This document shows, one piece after another, positions 10,136-47,358 of a DNA stretch of 64,000 nucleotides (its first letter is position 1; every line of letters begins with the position of its first letter). The notes under the pieces are model-generated. The model was not told the DNA's origin. It saw only the letters and a program-made list of their open reading frames with translations, and made no database searches. Origin of the DNA: Paraburkholderia sp. SOS3 (GTDB lineage Bacteria; Pseudomonadota; Gammaproteobacteria; Burkholderiales; Burkholderiaceae); the NCBI RefSeq assembly GCF_001922345.1, contig NZ_CP018811.1, positions 1,178,001 to 1,242,000 of the forward strand. Reading direction: 5' to 3'. Both the position numbers and the translations under genes were made by a program.

Positions 10136-11326
10136 TCAGAACTTGTGGCGCAACGCAAGACGCAGCACAGCCTGACGGTCGTTCGACGAATCGCCGAGAC
10201 CGCCGATATTCGCCGCCGCCGCGCCGCCCGTCGAACTGACGCCCGAGGCCAGCTGGATGGCCCCGGTGAAATACACGTCAGTCCGCTTCGAGATGAAGTA
10301 GTCCGCGAGCACGGCCACCTGATGATAGTGCTGGTCGCCAAGCGAGACGCCGTGAGCTTCGACGCCCGTGCTGCTCGTGTAGTTATACGCAATGCCGGTG
10401 AAGAACGACGGCGCGAACTGCCAGCGCAAGCCTGCTTCGAGGTCGTTGAATTTCGGCGACACGCCGCCGAGCGACGCAACGTTCCCGTACTGCGTGTTCG
10501 AATACGTCAACCCGATGATCGCCGGCCCGATCGCATAGGTGGCGCCAATCGCCGCGACCTGGTACGAGCTCGCGGTGACGTAATTGCTGTTCATCGTGCC
10601 GCTCAACGAGTTCGCGCCGTTCACGTTGTCGGTGAACAGGCCCGTGCCTGCCGTGCTGCCCGTCGGATTCTTGAAGAAGTTGAAGCCCGCGCCGACCGTC
10701 AGGGGGCCGTTCGAATACGATGCACCGAACGAATAGCCGCTGCCGCCGGTCACGTTGCCCGGCTGCCCGCCAAGACTCGCTTCCGCGCCGAAGATGAAGC
10801 CGTGCAGATTCGGGCTCACATACTTGATGCTGTTATTCACGCGCAGCGTGTTGACCAGATTGTCGAGGTCGACTGGATGGCCGAAGGTGGTCGATCCGCC
10901 GATATAACCGGTGCTCGTCACCGGCTGGACAAAACCGACGACGAGGTCGTACTGCCGCCCCAGCGTGACGGCGCCGTAGTCGAGGCTGTTCAGGCCGACA
11001 TACGTGGTGCGCCCGAACGGTGTGCCGCCCTGCGCGAATGCGCCGGTGTTCGCGTTGATGCCGCCCTGGATGTCGAAGATCGCAGCGAGATGTCCGCCCA
11101 GGTCTTCGGCGCCGCGAATGCCCCAGCGGCTGCCGTTCAGACCGTTGATCGAATCGAGCGTGAGCTGTCGGCCGCCAACGTTGACGCCGTTCACGACGTT
11201 CTTCGCGTTGGTATTGAACTGCACCCCTTCGTCGATAATGCCGTATAGCGTGACGCTGCTCTGTGCATGGGCCGTCACCGATCCTGCGGCCATCAGCGCC
11301 GCCAACCACCTTTTCTTCATTTTCAT
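10136..11326 (-). CDS. Gram-negative trimeric porin (OmpC-like, Burkholderia type)
   Basis: A 396-residue outer-membrane porin. The signal peptide MKMKKRWLAALMAAGSVTAHA ends at AHA, and the mature protein starts QSSVTLYGIIDEGVQF, the usual start of Burkholderia porins. The GSRWGIRGAEDLGGHLAAIFDIQ block and terminal Phe (ALRHKF) for outer-membrane insertion are present. The MKKRW Met two codons in is an alternative start. It lies directly downstream of the exported lyase gene on the same strand with 206 bp between, so it may feed the same catabolic system, although porins of this family are often independent. Confidence 0.93.
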   Translation of the reverse strand: MKMKKRWLAALMAAGSVTAHAQSSVTLYGIIDEGVQFNTNAKNVVNGVNVGGRQLTLDSINGLNGSRWGIRGAEDLGGHLAAIFDIQGGINANTGAFAQGGTPFGRTTYVGLNSLDYGAVTLGRQYDLVVGFVQPVTSTGYIGGSTTFGHPVDLDNLVNTLRVNNSIKYVSPNLHGFIFGAEASLGGQPGNVTGGSGYSFGASYSNGPLTVGAGFNFFKNPTGSTAGTGLFTDNVNGANSLSGTMNSNYVTASSYQVAAIGATYAIGPAIIGLTYSNTQYGNVASLGGVSPKFNDLEAGLRWQFAPSFFTGIAYNYTSSTGVEAHGVSLGDQHYHQVAVLADYFISKRTDVYFTGAIQLASGVSSTGGAAAANIGGLGDSSNDRQAVLRLALRHKF

Positions 11327-11532: not shown

Positions 11533-13176
11533 TCAATTGCGGTACTGCATCAGCAGCTGCGCGGCTGCCTGGAACTCTGGGGTAAAGGGGCGATCGTCGT
11601 CGCGAAACGGCACGACCTGGCGCAATGCATCAAAGAGCTTCTGCGTGTCAGGCGCAAGCGTGTATCCGCCGGCCGACTTCTGGCGCAACTCGACCGCCTG
11701 CGCCGACGAAATCAACTCGATGCCGAGCAACTGGAACGAGTTGTCGATCTGCTTGCGCACACGCTCGATCACGACCGGCGCGTTGGTCGCGATGTCCTCG
11801 ATGTCGCCCGCGGCGGGCAAATAGTCCATCGAAACGGGCATCGCCAGCGCCTTGTTCGCCTCGGCGAGCGCAAGAGGCGGTTTCTCCATCGCGCCGAAGG
11901 CATGCAACGTGTGATCGGTGCCGAGGAAGCGGCTCAGATGCGTGAAGCGCGGATCGTTGAGCTTGATCACGCGCTGCGCCGACGCGAGCGACGCATGAGC
12001 CAGTGCAAGCCCCGTTTCCTCGAACGACAGCACGAAGGGCAGCGGTTCGAAGTTCGCGTTGGGCAGAATCGCGCCGTAGAGCTTGCCGGCCTTCAGGTAG
12101 CTGCGTTTCGCCTGATACAGGTCGCTGTGAGGCTTTACGCCCAACGCGACACCGGGGTTGTCGTCCGACGAGTTCAACTGGATCTCGATCAGACGCCGGT
12201 CTTCGTCGTAGCTGCGATCGATTTCGGCCAGCAGATACGGCGCATCGCGAAAGCTGAGCGGATCTTGCAACGCGCGCGCGTCATCGCGCTGCCAAAGGCT
12301 GCTGCCGGCCAGCATGCCGCGCAATTCGGCGCCGACTTTCTCGACATGCGGATACGGATGCAGCGCGAGCGAGTCTTCGAGGAACGGAGACACGTTGCCG
12401 TTCAACCCTTGCAGGCTGACCGCGTACACGAGCTTTTCGACGCGCTGCAATTGATGCAGATCGACGAGCGCGAGCGACGCCATGCCCGTTGCGTACGCAT
12501 TCGAGCTCAGGATGCCGAGCGCGTCTTTTCCCCACGGACGGATCGGCGCGATGCCTGCTGCTTGCAGCGCCGCCGCGGCCGGCATCTTTTGCCCGTGGTA
12601 ATAGACATCGCCTTCACCCATCATCGTGAGACCGATGTGGGCGAGGATCGTGATATCCGCTTCGCCGACCGAGCCGACGGTGGGCATTACCGGCGTGATA
12701 CCCGCATTGAGAAACTGCTCGTACTTCTGTGCAACCGATAACTGCACGCCCGACCCGCCCACGAGCATCTGGTTGAGCCGCGTGGCCATCGCCGCGCGCG
12801 CGGTCCGCACATCCATGTCCGGGCCGACGCCGGCCGAATGCGCATGCAGCAGCGCCGCATTGAAGACCTTCGACGCCTCGATCACTTCCGGCGTCAGCTT
12901 GCCCTGCGCGTCGACCATTTGCCGGTCCTTGTTGAGACCGACGCCTACCGTGAGTCCGTAAATGCGTTGCCCCTGCACGGCCGCCTGAAGCAGCAGTTCG
13001 TGGCTTGCATCGACGCGCTTCGCCGCTTCCGGCGTGATTTCGACGTTCTCGCCCGCTGCGATGCTGGCGATGATTTCCGGCGTGGCTGATTTGCCGTCCA
13101 GCGCCACGGTCGCATGCGCCTGCAGCGCAGCAAGTATCAGCGCCGCACCAACCCCGCGGCGAATTGAGGTGAACAT
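11533..13176 (-). CDS. Exported HAL/PAL-family lyase lacking the MIO-forming Ala-Ser-Gly
   Basis: A 547-residue aromatic amino acid ammonia-lyase homologue. It starts with a Sec signal peptide (residues 1-22, cleavage near AHA). Family landmarks: Tyr73 in IYGLTVGVG, His113 in LLHAHSAGVG, Arg310 in LQDPLSFR, the LNSSDDNPG block at about 334-342 and Glu460 in AGDIED. However, GSVGASGDLAPL of normal enzymes reads GSVGEADITIL, with Glu172-Ala173-Asp174 in place of Ala-Ser-Gly and one residue deleted. The MIO electrophile therefore cannot form. MIO-free members exist: ergothionases eliminate trimethylamine from ergothioneine. That makes a betaine-type or other good-leaving-group lyase the best guess, not an ordinary ammonia-lyase. 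Export is unusual for this family. HutC-like operator sites lie upstream. Confidence 0.85.
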   Translation of the reverse strand: MFTSIRRGVGAALILAALQAHATVALDGKSATPEIIASIAAGENVEITPEAAKRVDASHELLLQAAVQGQRIYGLTVGVGLNKDRQMVDAQGKLTPEVIEASKVFNAALLHAHSAGVGPDMDVRTARAAMATRLNQMLVGGSGVQLSVAQKYEQFLNAGITPVMPTVGSVGEADITILAHIGLTMMGEGDVYYHGQKMPAAAALQAAGIAPIRPWGKDALGILSSNAYATGMASLALVDLHQLQRVEKLVYAVSLQGLNGNVSPFLEDSLALHPYPHVEKVGAELRGMLAGSSLWQRDDARALQDPLSFRDAPYLLAEIDRSYDEDRRLIEIQLNSSDDNPGVALGVKPHSDLYQAKRSYLKAGKLYGAILPNANFEPLPFVLSFEETGLALAHASLASAQRVIKLNDPRFTHLSRFLGTDHTLHAFGAMEKPPLALAEANKALAMPVSMDYLPAAGDIEDIATNAPVVIERVRKQIDNSFQLLGIELISSAQAVELRQKSAGGYTLAPDTQKLFDALRQVVPFRDDDRPFTPEFQAAAQLLMQYRN

Positions 13177-13266: not shown

Positions 13267-13276
13267 TGTATATACA
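13267..13276. promoter_or_regulatory. HutC-type operator, lyase promoter
   Basis: TGTATATACA, a perfect 10-bp palindrome matching the TGTA-N2-TACA motif known for HutC, lies 91 bp before the lyase start codon. Confidence 0.6.
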
Positions 13277-13437: not shown

Positions 13438-13447
13438 TGTTTATACA
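13438..13447. promoter_or_regulatory. Second HutC-type operator, imperfect
   Basis: TGTTTATACA differs by one base from the perfect site at 13267 and lies about 170 bp further from the lyase gene, 150 bp after the GntR stop codon. With flanking bases it reads TTGTTTATACAA. Confidence 0.4.
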
Positions 13448-14440: not shown

Positions 14441-15445
14441 TCAGGCGAACTTCAAGGTCTGGCCGATGTCGAGCCGTTTTGCCTTTTCGAGCATCGCGTG
14501 ACCTAGCCCGATATCGCTAAGGCTCAGGCCGCGATGCCAGAACAGGATGGTTTCGTCGTCGTTTTCGCGGCCGGGTTTTTTGCCCGCCACGATTTCGCCG
14601 AGTTCCGCATGCAGCGTTTCTTCCGAGAGCCGGCCGCTGTCGACGTGTTCGCGCAGCGCGCCGAAGGGGAGGCCTTTGCGGCATTGGCCCCAATCGTCGA
14701 CGACCATCTTGCTCATGATGTCGGTCAGCGAGAGCTCGACCGCGCTCATCGTGCCGTACGGCACGACGAACGCGCCGCGCTTGATCCATTCGGTTTTCAG
14801 CATCGGTTGCGGCTTGGGCAGACGCGACGCTTCGACGACGATATCGGCATCGCGCACGCACGATTCCCAGTCGGCGGTGACCTTGACGGGCTTGCCGAGG
14901 TCGCGCGACAGACGCTCTGCAAATGCGGTGCGGCTTTCTTCGCGGCGCGAGTGAACGCGGATTTCGTCGAAGTCGTACAGATGGTCGAGCAGGCGTACGT
15001 TCCAGTACGACGTGCCGCGCGCACCGATATGAGCGAGCACCTTGCTGTCCGCGCGCGCGAGATGTTTTGCGCCGAGCGCCGTCATCGCGCCGGTGCGCAT
15101 GTCGGTAATCGAGGTCGCGTCGAGGATCGCTTTCGGCACGCCGGTTTGCGGATCGAACAGGTTCAACACCGCGAGTTCGGACGGCAGATCGTGTTTGTAG
15201 TTGTCGACGAAGTCGCCGACCACCTTTACGCCGGCAAGGCCGAGCGGATGAATCACGCCGCGCAGCACATTGAAGTGGCCTTCCGCGGAGTCGCGCGGAA
15301 TCAGGTGCATGCGCGGTTCGATCACCGTTTGCCGGTTGCCCTGCGCGTGGAGCGCGGACTCGACGGCGGCGAGAATTTCGTCATTGGTCAGCGCGAGCTG
15401 TTCGACGTCCTGCCGATTCAGATAGGTCAGGTTGATGGATTGCAT
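14441..15445 (-). CDS. Ornithine cyclodeaminase/mu-crystallin family protein
   Basis: A 334-residue NAD(P)-dependent enzyme of the OCD/mu-crystallin family, which includes ornithine cyclodeaminase, alanine dehydrogenase, ketimine reductase and opine-type enzymes. It starts MQSINLTYLNRQDVEQL, has the substrate Arg in RMHLIPRDS, the IGARGTSYWNVRLL dinucleotide-binding turn and DATSITDMRTGAMTALGAKHLA, all typical. The ATG at 15445 has GGAGA upstream. It lies 87 bp downstream of the MFS transporter on the same strand and 121 bp upstream of the regulator, so the three are probably one transcript. It may process the keto or imino product of the imported compound; which one is not visible. Confidence 0.87.
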   Translation of the reverse strand: MQSINLTYLNRQDVEQLALTNDEILAAVESALHAQGNRQTVIEPRMHLIPRDSAEGHFNVLRGVIHPLGLAGVKVVGDFVDNYKHDLPSELAVLNLFDPQTGVPKAILDATSITDMRTGAMTALGAKHLARADSKVLAHIGARGTSYWNVRLLDHLYDFDEIRVHSRREESRTAFAERLSRDLGKPVKVTADWESCVRDADIVVEASRLPKPQPMLKTEWIKRGAFVVPYGTMSAVELSLTDIMSKMVVDDWGQCRKGLPFGALREHVDSGRLSEETLHAELGEIVAGKKPGRENDDETILFWHRGLSLSDIGLGHAMLEKAKRLDIGQTLKFA

Positions 15446-15532
15446 GAAGAAGTGTCTCCGGTTGAATCGTTCCGCCCGGCCGGCGGTTGAAATGCGGTAG
15501 CGGACAGGCGCCACGCGCGTGTTTGTGTCGGT

Positions 15533-16831
15533 TTATCTCGCAGTCGATGTGTTCGCTGCGTCGGGCACGTTCCCGGTGGCCGATGCCTTGAAGCGCGCGA
15601 GGTCGGCCTCCGGATGGATCAGGGCGAGCGCGGCGAGTCCCAATACCGCGACGAGCGCGCCGGCGTAGAGGTAGCCCGTGCGGAATCCGTCGACGGGATC
15701 GGCTCCGACGTCGACGATCATGCCCATCGCAAGCGGCGCGACGAGACCCGCGAGCGTGTGGATCGAATTCGTGATGCCGAGCATCGCGCCGCGCTGCGAG
15801 GCCGGCGAGATCTCGCCGATCAGCGTCGAACCGAGCGTGAAAATCACGCTGCCTGTTGAAAACGCGAGGCCGATCAGCAGGATCTTCGCGATGCCGGGCG
15901 GCACGATCGCGAAGCTTATGGCGGCAATGCCCGCGATCGCGACGCACGCGCAGCCGGGGGCCGCGCGCGACACGCGGCTCGAATAGCCGGCTTTCGACAG
16001 CGTTTGCGAAACATAGGCGAGGCAGGGTGCAAGCGCCATCTGCATGATGGAGGGCAGGGTGATGATCCACGCCGCGGACGATGGCTCGAGGCGAACCGCC
16101 TTGATCAGATAGTTGGCGAGCCACACGATGTTCAGCGCGATCATCCAGTAGGCGGCAAAGCCTGCGATAAATACGCCGATCGCGGTGCGGCTAAGAATGA
16201 GCTGGCGGTACGGCACTCGCGCGGGCGCATCGGGCTGGCCGGCGGGCGCGTCGAGCGGGCCGTCCTCGCCGAGCAGCGCCCAGGCGAGCGCCCATACCGC
16301 GCCGACGGCGGCCAACGTGCCGAAAGCCGCATGCCAACTGTAATGTTCGATGATCCATGTGATGAGCGGCGCGACGACGCCGGTGCCGAATGCGGCGCCG
16401 CATGCGACGACGCTGGTCGGCACGGCTCGGCGCTTGTCGCCGAACCACTTGTAGACGGCGTGCAGCGCAACGGGGAATGCGGGGCCTTCCGCGGCGCCCA
16501 GGATGACGCGGCTGCCGAGCATGACGGCGTAGCTGACGGTGCCGGCCATCGGCAGCAGCGCGAGCGCCCAGATGATGCTCATGCACAGCATGATGCTGCG
16601 CGTGGTGACGCGATTGGCGAGAAAGCCGACGACGACGCCCGAAATGGAAAACAGCAGGAAAAAGGCGCTGCCGAGCGCGCCGAACTGCGCGTGCGTGAGA
16701 TGCAGTTCCTTGATGATGGCGGTGCTTGACAACCCTACCACTGCCTTGTCGGCAAAATTGACAAGCATGAACAGGAAGACGAGCACGACGATCATCCATG
16801 CCCGCCTGCTGCTCACTGATGAATGGACCAT
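15533..16831 (-). CDS. MFS transporter, anion:cation symporter (ACS) type
   Basis: A 432-residue inner-membrane transporter with twelve predicted helices. MIVVLVFLFMLVNFADKAVVGLSSTAIIKEL and the LGAAEGPAFPVALHAVYKWFGDKRR block (motif of ACS symporters that carry organic anions) are the best markers. The ATG at 16831 starts MVHSSVSSRRAWM; earlier codons look non-coding. It is the first gene of the leftward run transporter, cyclodeaminase-like, GntR. Two HutC-type sites lie 115-200 bp upstream, so uptake is probably induced together with the lyase. The likely cargo is a carboxylate related to the lyase substrate or product. Confidence 0.88.
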   Translation of the reverse strand: MVHSSVSSRRAWMIVVLVFLFMLVNFADKAVVGLSSTAIIKELHLTHAQFGALGSAFFLLFSISGVVVGFLANRVTTRSIMLCMSIIWALALLPMAGTVSYAVMLGSRVILGAAEGPAFPVALHAVYKWFGDKRRAVPTSVVACGAAFGTGVVAPLITWIIEHYSWHAAFGTLAAVGAVWALAWALLGEDGPLDAPAGQPDAPARVPYRQLILSRTAIGVFIAGFAAYWMIALNIVWLANYLIKAVRLEPSSAAWIITLPSIMQMALAPCLAYVSQTLSKAGYSSRVSRAAPGCACVAIAGIAAISFAIVPPGIAKILLIGLAFSTGSVIFTLGSTLIGEISPASQRGAMLGITNSIHTLAGLVAPLAMGMIVDVGADPVDGFRTGYLYAGALVAVLGLAALALIHPEADLARFKASATGNVPDAANTSTAR

Positions 16832-16945
16832 TCCCGGCCGCTCCGTTGTGTCGAGGGATTCGATGGCAAAGCCGTCGAGAAGGGCAACGTGGCCTGATGC
16901 CCTGCCGCCGATCAGCAGACGCAAGGTAGCAGCTTCAAAAAAATG

Positions 16946-16955
16946 TGTCTATACA
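16946..16955. promoter_or_regulatory. HutC-type operator, imperfect, MFS promoter
   Basis: TGTCTATACA, one base away from TGTATATACA, about 115 bp before the MFS start codon. Confidence 0.4.
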
Positions 16956-17017: not shown

Positions 17018-17031
17018 AATGTATATACATT
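17018..17031. promoter_or_regulatory. HutC-type operator, MFS promoter
   Basis: AATGTATATACATT is a perfect 14-bp palindrome containing TGTATATACA, the same core found before the lyase gene, 187 bp before the MFS start codon. Confidence 0.6.
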
Positions 17032-46194: not shown

Positions 46195-47358
46195 ATGAAA
46201 AAGACATTGGTCGCGATCGCTACGACATCGACGTTTGCATCGATCGCACATGCGCAAAGCAGCGTGACGCTTTACGGCCTGATCGACGAAGGTTTCGAGG
46301 CTATCAGCAATGTCGCGACCTCCGGTGGTGGGGCGCGGCAGTACCGACTCGATTCCGCGAGCGGTCTGAACAGTTCGCGCTGGGGCTTGCGCGGGGCCGA
46401 AGATCTCGGTGGCGGCCTGAAAGCGATCTTCCAGCTCGAGAATGGCTTCGAACTGAATAACGGCCGGCTCAGCCAGGGCGGCGCCGAGTTCGGCCGGCAA
46501 GCGTTCGTCGGCATCAGCAGCAGCAAGTTCGGTACGGTCACGCTCGGGCGGCAGTACGACAGCGTCGTCGACTACGTCGGCACGTATGCGTTTGCCGATA
46601 CGAGCGTCGGCACGGCCCACTCGGCGCATCCGGCCGATCTCGACAACTTCAACAACAGCCGGCGCACGAACAATGCGGTCAAGTTCAAGAGCGCCGACTA
46701 TGCAGGACTGACCTTTGGCGGCGTCTACAGCTTCGGCGGGGTGCCGGGTTCGGTCGGCACCAATCAGATCTACTCGGTCGGCGTCGGCTACAAGCACGGT
46801 CCGCTCAATCTCGGCGCCGCGTACCTCGATGCGCGTAACCCGGCCTCGTCGCTATTCGGCAGTAACCCGAGCGACACGCCAACGTCGAACGGGCTTACCG
46901 GCTCGCCTGTGTTCAGCGGCTATGCGAGCGCGAGTTCGTACCATGTGGTCGCGGCGGCCGGCACGTATTCGATCGGGCCGGCGACGATCGGCGCAAACTG
47001 GTCGAATGTGCGCTTTGCCAATATCGCCTCGCTCAATCATGGCACGGCGGTGTTCAACGACGTCGAAGCGAGCGTTCAGTATCACATCACGCCGGCTTTG
47101 GCCGCCGGCGTTGCGTACAACTATCTTCACGGCAGCGCCGCGAATGGAACGGTCGGTGGTGCGAACTACAGCCAGTTCGGGGGCGGCGTTGAGTACGCAC
47201 TGTCGGTGCGCACCGACGTGTATGCGGCGGTCGACTATCAGGTGGCCAATGGACACGACTCGACCGGGCATGGCGCGACGGCGAACCTGGCCGGACTGTC
47301 GCCGTCTTCGAACCGTTATCAGACGGTTGGCCGCGTCGGTCTGCGCCACCGCTTCTGA
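46195..47358 (+). CDS. Gram-negative trimeric porin (Burkholderia type), second copy
   Basis: A 387-residue outer-membrane porin. Signal peptide MKKTLVAIATTSTFASIAHA, mature start QSSVTLYGLIDEGFEAIS, then SSRWGLRGAEDLGGGLKAIFQLENGFELNNG and terminal Phe in GLRHRF. It resembles the porin at 10136-11326 in architecture but differs over most loops. No operon partner: the haloacid operon ends 680 bp upstream and two hairpins follow its stop. Confidence 0.95.
   Translation: MKKTLVAIATTSTFASIAHAQSSVTLYGLIDEGFEAISNVATSGGGARQYRLDSASGLNSSRWGLRGAEDLGGGLKAIFQLENGFELNNGRLSQGGAEFGRQAFVGISSSKFGTVTLGRQYDSVVDYVGTYAFADTSVGTAHSAHPADLDNFNNSRRTNNAVKFKSADYAGLTFGGVYSFGGVPGSVGTNQIYSVGVGYKHGPLNLGAAYLDARNPASSLFGSNPSDTPTSNGLTGSPVFSGYASASSYHVVAAAGTYSIGPATIGANWSNVRFANIASLNHGTAVFNDVEASVQYHITPALAAGVAYNYLHGSAANGTVGGANYSQFGGGVEYALSVRTDVYAAVDYQVANGHDSTGHGATANLAGLSPSSNRYQTVGRVGLRHRF

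Follow-up and report, generated by a model that had tools for sequence, protein, structure and literature searches.

What does an enzyme of the histidine and phenylalanine ammonia-lyase (HAL/PAL) fold act upon when it lacks the residues that form the MIO cofactor and appears to be sent to the periplasm? The question is raised by a gene of Paraburkholderia sp. SOS3 that lies in a 64,000-nucleotide stretch of contig NZ_CP018811.1 (positions 1,178,001 to 1,242,000; hereafter the window). We prefer the view, with a probability of roughly 0.55, that the gene encodes a periplasmic MIO-free trimethylamine-lyase that was re-specialized from ergothioneine to hercynine and would yield urocanate. The features of the locus are collected in Table 1.

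Table 1. The lyase locus and its HutC-type sites, in window coordinates.
Feature	Position	Strand	Basis or remark
Gram-negative porin (PF13609)	10136..11326	-	downstream of lyase
MIO-free HAL/PAL-fold lyase, predicted periplasmic	11533..13176	-	ATG start, 547 aa, intact
HutC-type operator TGTATATACA	13267..13276	.	91 nt upstream of lyase start codon
HutC-like site, 1 mismatch, upstream of lyase	13438..13447	.	sequence scan
HutC-family GntR repressor, 240 aa	13597..14319	-	TIGR02018 256 bits, cut-off 220
Ornithine cyclodeaminase/mu-crystallin-family (OCD) enzyme	14441..15514	-	profile matches
MFS transporter	15533..16924	-	profile matches; start codon may be ATG at 16831
HutC-like site, 1 mismatch, upstream of MFS-OCD-HutC genes	16946..16955	.	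sequence scan
HutC-type operator TGTATATACA, upstream of MFS-OCD-HutC genes	17020..17029	.	exact word

The initial annotation had seen Glu172-Ala173-Asp174 where MIO enzymes have Ala-Ser-Gly, and codons 172-174 indeed read GAA-GCG-GAT (12655-12663). The description can be refined. In an alignment with the genome's own HutH, the window stretch GSVGEA-DITILAH is one residue shorter than GSVGASGDLAPLAH of the MIO enzyme, so that Asp174 pairs with the conserved Asp behind the triad. Ala-Ser-Gly is thus replaced by Glu-Ala together with a one-residue deletion. The HAL/PAL scaffold, also claimed at that stage, is confirmed by a PF00221 match (E 6e-117, Pfam), which places the protein in the aromatic amino acid lyase superfamily, and by the fold of an AlphaFold2 model. 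Without Ala-Ser-Gly the protein falls outside the MIO-dependent ammonia-lyases (HutH, PAL, TAL), and at 264 bits against the hutH model TIGR01225 (cut-off 539) it is no HutH equivalog.

Relatives were sought by scanning one genome per species (84,980 species) for six exact short peptides, a scan that is by its nature incomplete. It returned 54 lyase loci, 12 of which (Psychrobacter) are ordinary HutH with Ala-Ser-Gly. Of the other 42, 39 cover the triad region, and Ala-Ser-Gly is absent from every one of them (39/39); three are fragments that do not extend to it. Glu172 itself is not universal, since some relatives have Met, Gln or Ala. Against five members of its clade the window gene has a dN/dS (NG86) of 0.10-0.13, with synonymous sites near saturation, and purifying selection acts on it. 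That the missing triad reflects an error of sequencing or decay of the gene is unlikely, because the relatives also lack it and dN/dS is so low. The six-peptide scan does not exhaust the family: further relatives occur on 34 plasmid records, and 20 of 299 genomes of the window's taxonomic family, its own included, match the lyase at E 1e-60 or better. A second group of PF00221 proteins without Ala-Ser-Gly was also encountered in relatives of the window genome, not in that genome itself (L139, L141, L142, L145:1582-3171 and L132), with the motif GSVGYL(T/S)HMAH or GSVGYLAPEAH. The Caballeronia member (L145) has an ABC transporter of amino-acid type on one side and a canonical HutU on the other, and the group may represent a second way to make urocanate without MIO, possibly in the cytoplasm.

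The descent of the window lyase points to ergothionases, as had been suspected from the missing triad. The T. denticola ergothionase is its best PDB match by sequence (E 3.9e-80) and the best Foldseek match of the AlphaFold2 model (E 6.3e-32, TM 0.88 on target; the model, built from 22 sequences, has a mean pLDDT of 86.7 and a pTM of 0.87). The model also matches HAL, TAL and PAL structures. In a maximum-likelihood tree of 56 proteins, which carries a long-branch warning for distant rows, the lyase groups with the Treponema proteins L151/L152 and apart from the MIO enzymes, so the clustering inside the latter that would have contradicted the initial annotation is not seen. Six proteins (from the window, L004, L005, L006, L007 and L038) form one clade (100/100), nested among other exported lyases; the fork linking this window clade to most lyases of ergothioneine clusters is weak (84/85). 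A seventh member, L172 (Paraburkholderia PGU19, complete plasmid), was found after the tree had been made and was placed by its 71% identity and its clade-specific residues.

Tyr73, Lys83, Lys432 and Glu460 of the window lyase align with Treponema L152 and are invariant in all 22 sequences of our alignment A1. We take these positions to be the active-site lysine pair, tyrosine and glutamate of ergothionase, in which two lysines are reportedly among the catalytic residues. Lys83 and Lys432 are common to the Treponema and window proteins and missing from the genome's own HutH. Catalysis is nonetheless a prediction from sequence, which leaves some room for a catalytically dead relative that binds or senses a ligand in the periplasm; with dN/dS near 0.1 and four such residues unchanged throughout A1, we consider this very improbable. 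The lyase of S. meliloti 1021 pSymA (L173, 8929-10569; 55% identical, with a signal-like start and annotated as hutH in some strains) has Ala in place of the otherwise conserved Lys432. No ergothioneine or hut representatives were found within 9 kb of it, and it was set aside as evidence owing to the loss of this lysine.

The N-terminus of the window lyase scores as a cleavable Sec-type signal peptide of about residues 1-22 (AHA^TV) by our own simple score of hydrophobic core and positive n-region, in line with the initial annotation, and a periplasmic location is predicted. That such an exported lyase would be a new arrangement did not survive the comparison. Signal-like N-termini are present in 42 of 43 lyase-family proteins scored (the exception is cyanobacterial), those of ergothioneine clusters included, and export is therefore a branch-wide trait. 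Treponema L152 and five MIO controls stayed below the threshold of the same score. The exported arrangement being widespread, the novelty likely lies in a shift of substrate and regulon toward hercynine and urocanate. Elsewhere in the window, a catalase (PF00199, 5584-7278, minus strand) begins with a hydrophobic stretch whose last residues are LYAA and is possibly exported.

The substrate has to be sought in the company that these genes keep. Neighbors were located across loci by tblastn with annotated representatives. A thiourocanate hydratase gene adjoins 26 of the 43 signal-scored lyases and is present in 27 of the 42 non-Psychrobacter loci, but in none of the five of these that belong to the window clade. 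In Serratia (L026), ErtE, ErtD, thiohydantoin desulfurase and thiourocanate hydratase adjoin the lyase, all above the NCBIfam cut-offs. One Comamonas testosteroni ergothioneine cluster (L025; 5.6 kb, 10.0 kb) contains two distinct signal-bearing ergothionase-like lyases, whose identities with the window protein are 43% and 60%. The seven loci of the window clade, as far as their contigs reach, have instead the HutC repressor, the OCD enzyme and the MFS transporter, and tblastn revealed no Ert-type ergothioneine genes at six of them (window, L004, L005, L006, L007 and L038). A porin follows the lyase in four clade loci (window, L004, L005 and L038), as it does in many relatives; a second porin in the window (46195-47355, plus strand) is 48% identical to that of L038. 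The Cupriavidus loci have neither the ergothioneine nor the HutC context, and the porin is the sole neighbor common to L012, L015 and L019 (L022 stood outside that comparison).

The content of whole genomes gives a similar picture. Thiohydantoin desulfurase was sought in 21 lyase-bearing genomes, six of the window clade and 15 others, and was found in seven of the 21, all among the 15; the 21 stood behind 23 entries, two genomes having been entered twice to judge by their identical coordinates. The same seven have a thiourocanate hydratase above cut-off (G311 has a contig-cut match below it), so that neither the desulfurase nor an above-cut-off hydratase was detected in the six clade genomes (0/6 for both) and the clade does not belong with the ergothioneine-catabolic clusters as judged by this pair. 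It should be noted that the desulfurase is also missing from eight of the 15 other genomes: four are Cupriavidus with neither context, three are metagenome or draft contigs, and in one the cluster is cut by a contig end. Its absence alone is thus no proof of a new substrate. The lyase could be a plain exported ergothionase, converting ergothioneine to thiourocanate and trimethylamine, with regulation alone changed. Its position among lyases many of which belong to ergothioneine clusters and its retained ergothionase-type residues would suit that explanation, and in the four Cupriavidus, for example, an exported lyase has been retained although the ergothioneine genes sought are absent. We think it unlikely, since in the clade genomes thiourocanate would be a dead end, unless trimethylamine alone brings a benefit, and since the HutC-type operators and the canonical HutU in the operons of some relatives, both described below, also count against it.

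HutC is described as binding TGTA-N2-TACA in Pseudomonas (PMC12977541). Four sites in the window match TGTATATACA with at most one mismatch, and every one of them is upstream of the lyase or of the MFS-OCD-HutC genes. The exact word is present at three places in the 7.5-Mb genome, namely the lyase promoter, the promoter of the MFS operon, and 58 nt upstream of hutH, and the reversed control word at one. By a simple post hoc estimate, the chance that at least two of three random sites would fall into the two 350-nt stretches of this locus is about 3e-8. Together with a HutC above its cut-off, the operators at 13267 and 17020 support membership of the lyase in a HutC regulon, the binding itself being predicted. 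A TTGACA starts 20 nt upstream of the 13267 operator; as the promoter scan gave no sigma-70 match at the lyase, we limit the claim to this hexamer. Four of six clade loci (window, L004, L005 and L038) have sites in the 350 nt that precede the lyase. In L007, and in the later-found L172, OCD precedes the lyase and the sites lie upstream of OCD; L006 is cut. The same 350-nt interval is free of such sites in all 33 non-clade loci examined, out of 37 (L036, L040, L043 and L044, fragments or loci with little upstream sequence, were left out). The hut genes of Serratia bear TGTATATACA too, as expected for a HutC operator.

In some relatives the link to histidine catabolism is physical. The order in L038 is MFS-OCD-HutU-HutI-HutF-HutC-lyase-porin, and its four Hut proteins are above the NCBIfam cut-offs; HutU scores 940 bits (cut-off 375) and only 671 with the thiourocanate hydratase model (cut-off 930), HutI 477 (cut-off 298) and HutF 596 (cut-off 413). 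L172 has the order OCD-HutU-lyase-MFS with HutC adjoining, and in L006 a HutU upstream of the lyase is truncated by the contig end. A linked urocanate hydratase is thus seen in three of seven clade loci; none was found at the window, L004 or L007, and L005 is cut by its contig. The urocanases of L038, L026 and the window genome were identified by their NCBIfam scores, and those of L172 and L006 by a tblastn match that is closer to HutU of L038 than to thiourocanate hydratase of Serratia, with Pfam in addition for L172. The only urocanase of the window genome is a canonical HutU, whose hut operon also encodes HutH, HutC and HutI. The HutC-type operators would also suit an MIO-free histidine ammonia-lyase that makes urocanate from histidine in the periplasm, a notion to which we give hardly any credence: MIO is missing, the hutH model score is far under its cut-off, and a normal hutH already stands behind the same operator word.

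Since the locus is HutC-linked, some relatives have HutU in their operons and the ergothioneine genes sought are absent, the context favors hercynine over ergothioneine. An MIO-free lyase should require a good leaving group, and ergothionase is reported to expel trimethylamine (PMC13405746). The product should enter the hut pathway, given the HutU genes of some relatives and the HutC-type sites of the locus. Hercynine (N-alpha-trimethylhistidine) meets both demands. Of the earlier suggestion, action on a betaine is probable, with hercynine a likelier substrate than ergothioneine. We propose that the Sec system exports this 1,2-elimination enzyme of the ergothionase lineage, that hercynine enters through the adjacent porin, and that the lyase strips trimethylamine from it in the periplasm to leave urocanate. 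Urocanate would then be taken up, probably by the MFS transporter, for which we infer an inward direction, and would follow the normal hut pathway; it would also lift the repression by HutC of both the lyase locus and the hut operon. Hercynine is made by fungi, actinobacteria and cyanobacteria. One study reports that nine out of ten strains of cyanobacteria contain it (PMC3826126). It is also described as the precursor of ergothioneine (PMC7653990). Export would shield the cell's own hercynine pool from the lyase, the window genome having an EgtD homologue (296 bits, cut-off 290.9). We considered EgtD as a correlate of the clade and rejected it: it is present in 6/6 clade genomes but exceeds the cut-off in 229 of 299 family genomes as well, and is mere background that gives only a possible reason for export.

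Several observations count against hercynine. A linked HutU is present in merely three of the seven clade loci. OCD, which lies beside the lyase in all clade loci but the truncated L006 (six of seven), has no place in the conversion of hercynine to urocanate. The association extends to Polaromonas JS666 plasmid 1 (L174:8974-12703), where a lyase only 42% identical to the window protein is adjoined by two substrate-binding proteins and by an OCD enzyme that shares 74% identity with its L038 counterpart; read from its annotated start, this lyase shows no obvious signal peptide. The substrate may therefore be some other histidine substituted at N-alpha, opine-like or partly methylated, from which a different amine would be eliminated to leave urocanate and OCD would process the amine. 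Among the PDB matches of the OCD enzyme is 4m54, a deposit named as a putative ornithine cyclodeaminase; we take it to be SbnB, which acts on an opine-like compound. No annotated neighbor in the window points to an opine, however, and many close relatives belong to clusters for a trimethyl betaine, ergothioneine, so that we find this alternative quite unlikely.

Does the protein itself bear marks of a change to hercynine? Two clade-specific residues near the expected pocket are suggestive only. Ala115 is Gly, and Pro313 is Val, in 26/26 ergothioneine-cluster rows. Residue 115 is two after the histidine that presumably binds imidazole in HutH, and Pro313 recurs in HutH and in the S. meliloti lyase. 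The Treponema protein has Leu at position 115, and the Comamonas ergothioneine-cluster lyase L025b has Ala; Gly115 is thus not needed for ergothioneine. Treponema ergothionase is said to favor the thio-substrate, a further point against hercynine. Clade-specific residues are in any case expected between any two clades, which lessens the weight of both.

No enzyme that degrades hercynine is known to us, and none turned up in the open-access literature as far as our search reached. The chances seem even that the window encodes the first hercynine (histidine-betaine) trimethylamine-lyase, exported, MIO-free, derived from ergothionases and captured by the HutC regulon. If so, it would fill a gap in betaine catabolism, and a betaine of fungi, actinobacteria and cyanobacteria would enter the histidine pathway through a reaction outside the inner membrane. 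Ergothioneine and hercynine lyases, at 56-67% identity, would be a natural pair for studying MIO-free activation with and without sulfur.

Ergothionase is also known from Burkholderia sp. HME13, and its substrate is the mushroom antioxidant. The T. denticola enzyme (6s7j/6s7q) resembles the window lyase in fold, absence of MIO, the GE(A/G)DIT motif and the equivalents of Lys83 and Lys432; the window lyase has a signal peptide, whereas Treponema L152 has none by the simple score. One review infers that cells bearing ergothionase must import ergothioneine (PMC7653990); an exported first step would need no such importer. The lyases of ergothioneine clusters (Serratia, Pseudomonas gingeri, Burkholderia and Caballeronia; 56-67% identical to the window protein in A1) share with it the signal-like N-terminus, the absence of MIO and, often, an adjacent porin. 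They differ in being linked to the genes for ErtD, ErtE, thiohydantoin desulfurase and thiourocanate hydratase, and their clusters have a LysR-like gene (named by eye), while the 350 nt preceding the lyase contain no HutC-type operator. The window genome, in contrast, lacks the ergothioneine genes sought and has HutC-type operators at the locus. With HutH the lyase shares the PF00221 fold and, within the window genome, the operator word, but HutH has the MIO triad, lacks a signal peptide by the simple score and is only 26% identical. In sum, the system has the TGTA-N2-TACA operator and the HutC family in common with the ordinary hut pathway, and in L038 HutU, HutI and HutF adjoin the lyase itself; the entry step would be a predicted periplasmic betaine lyase here, and is HutH there.
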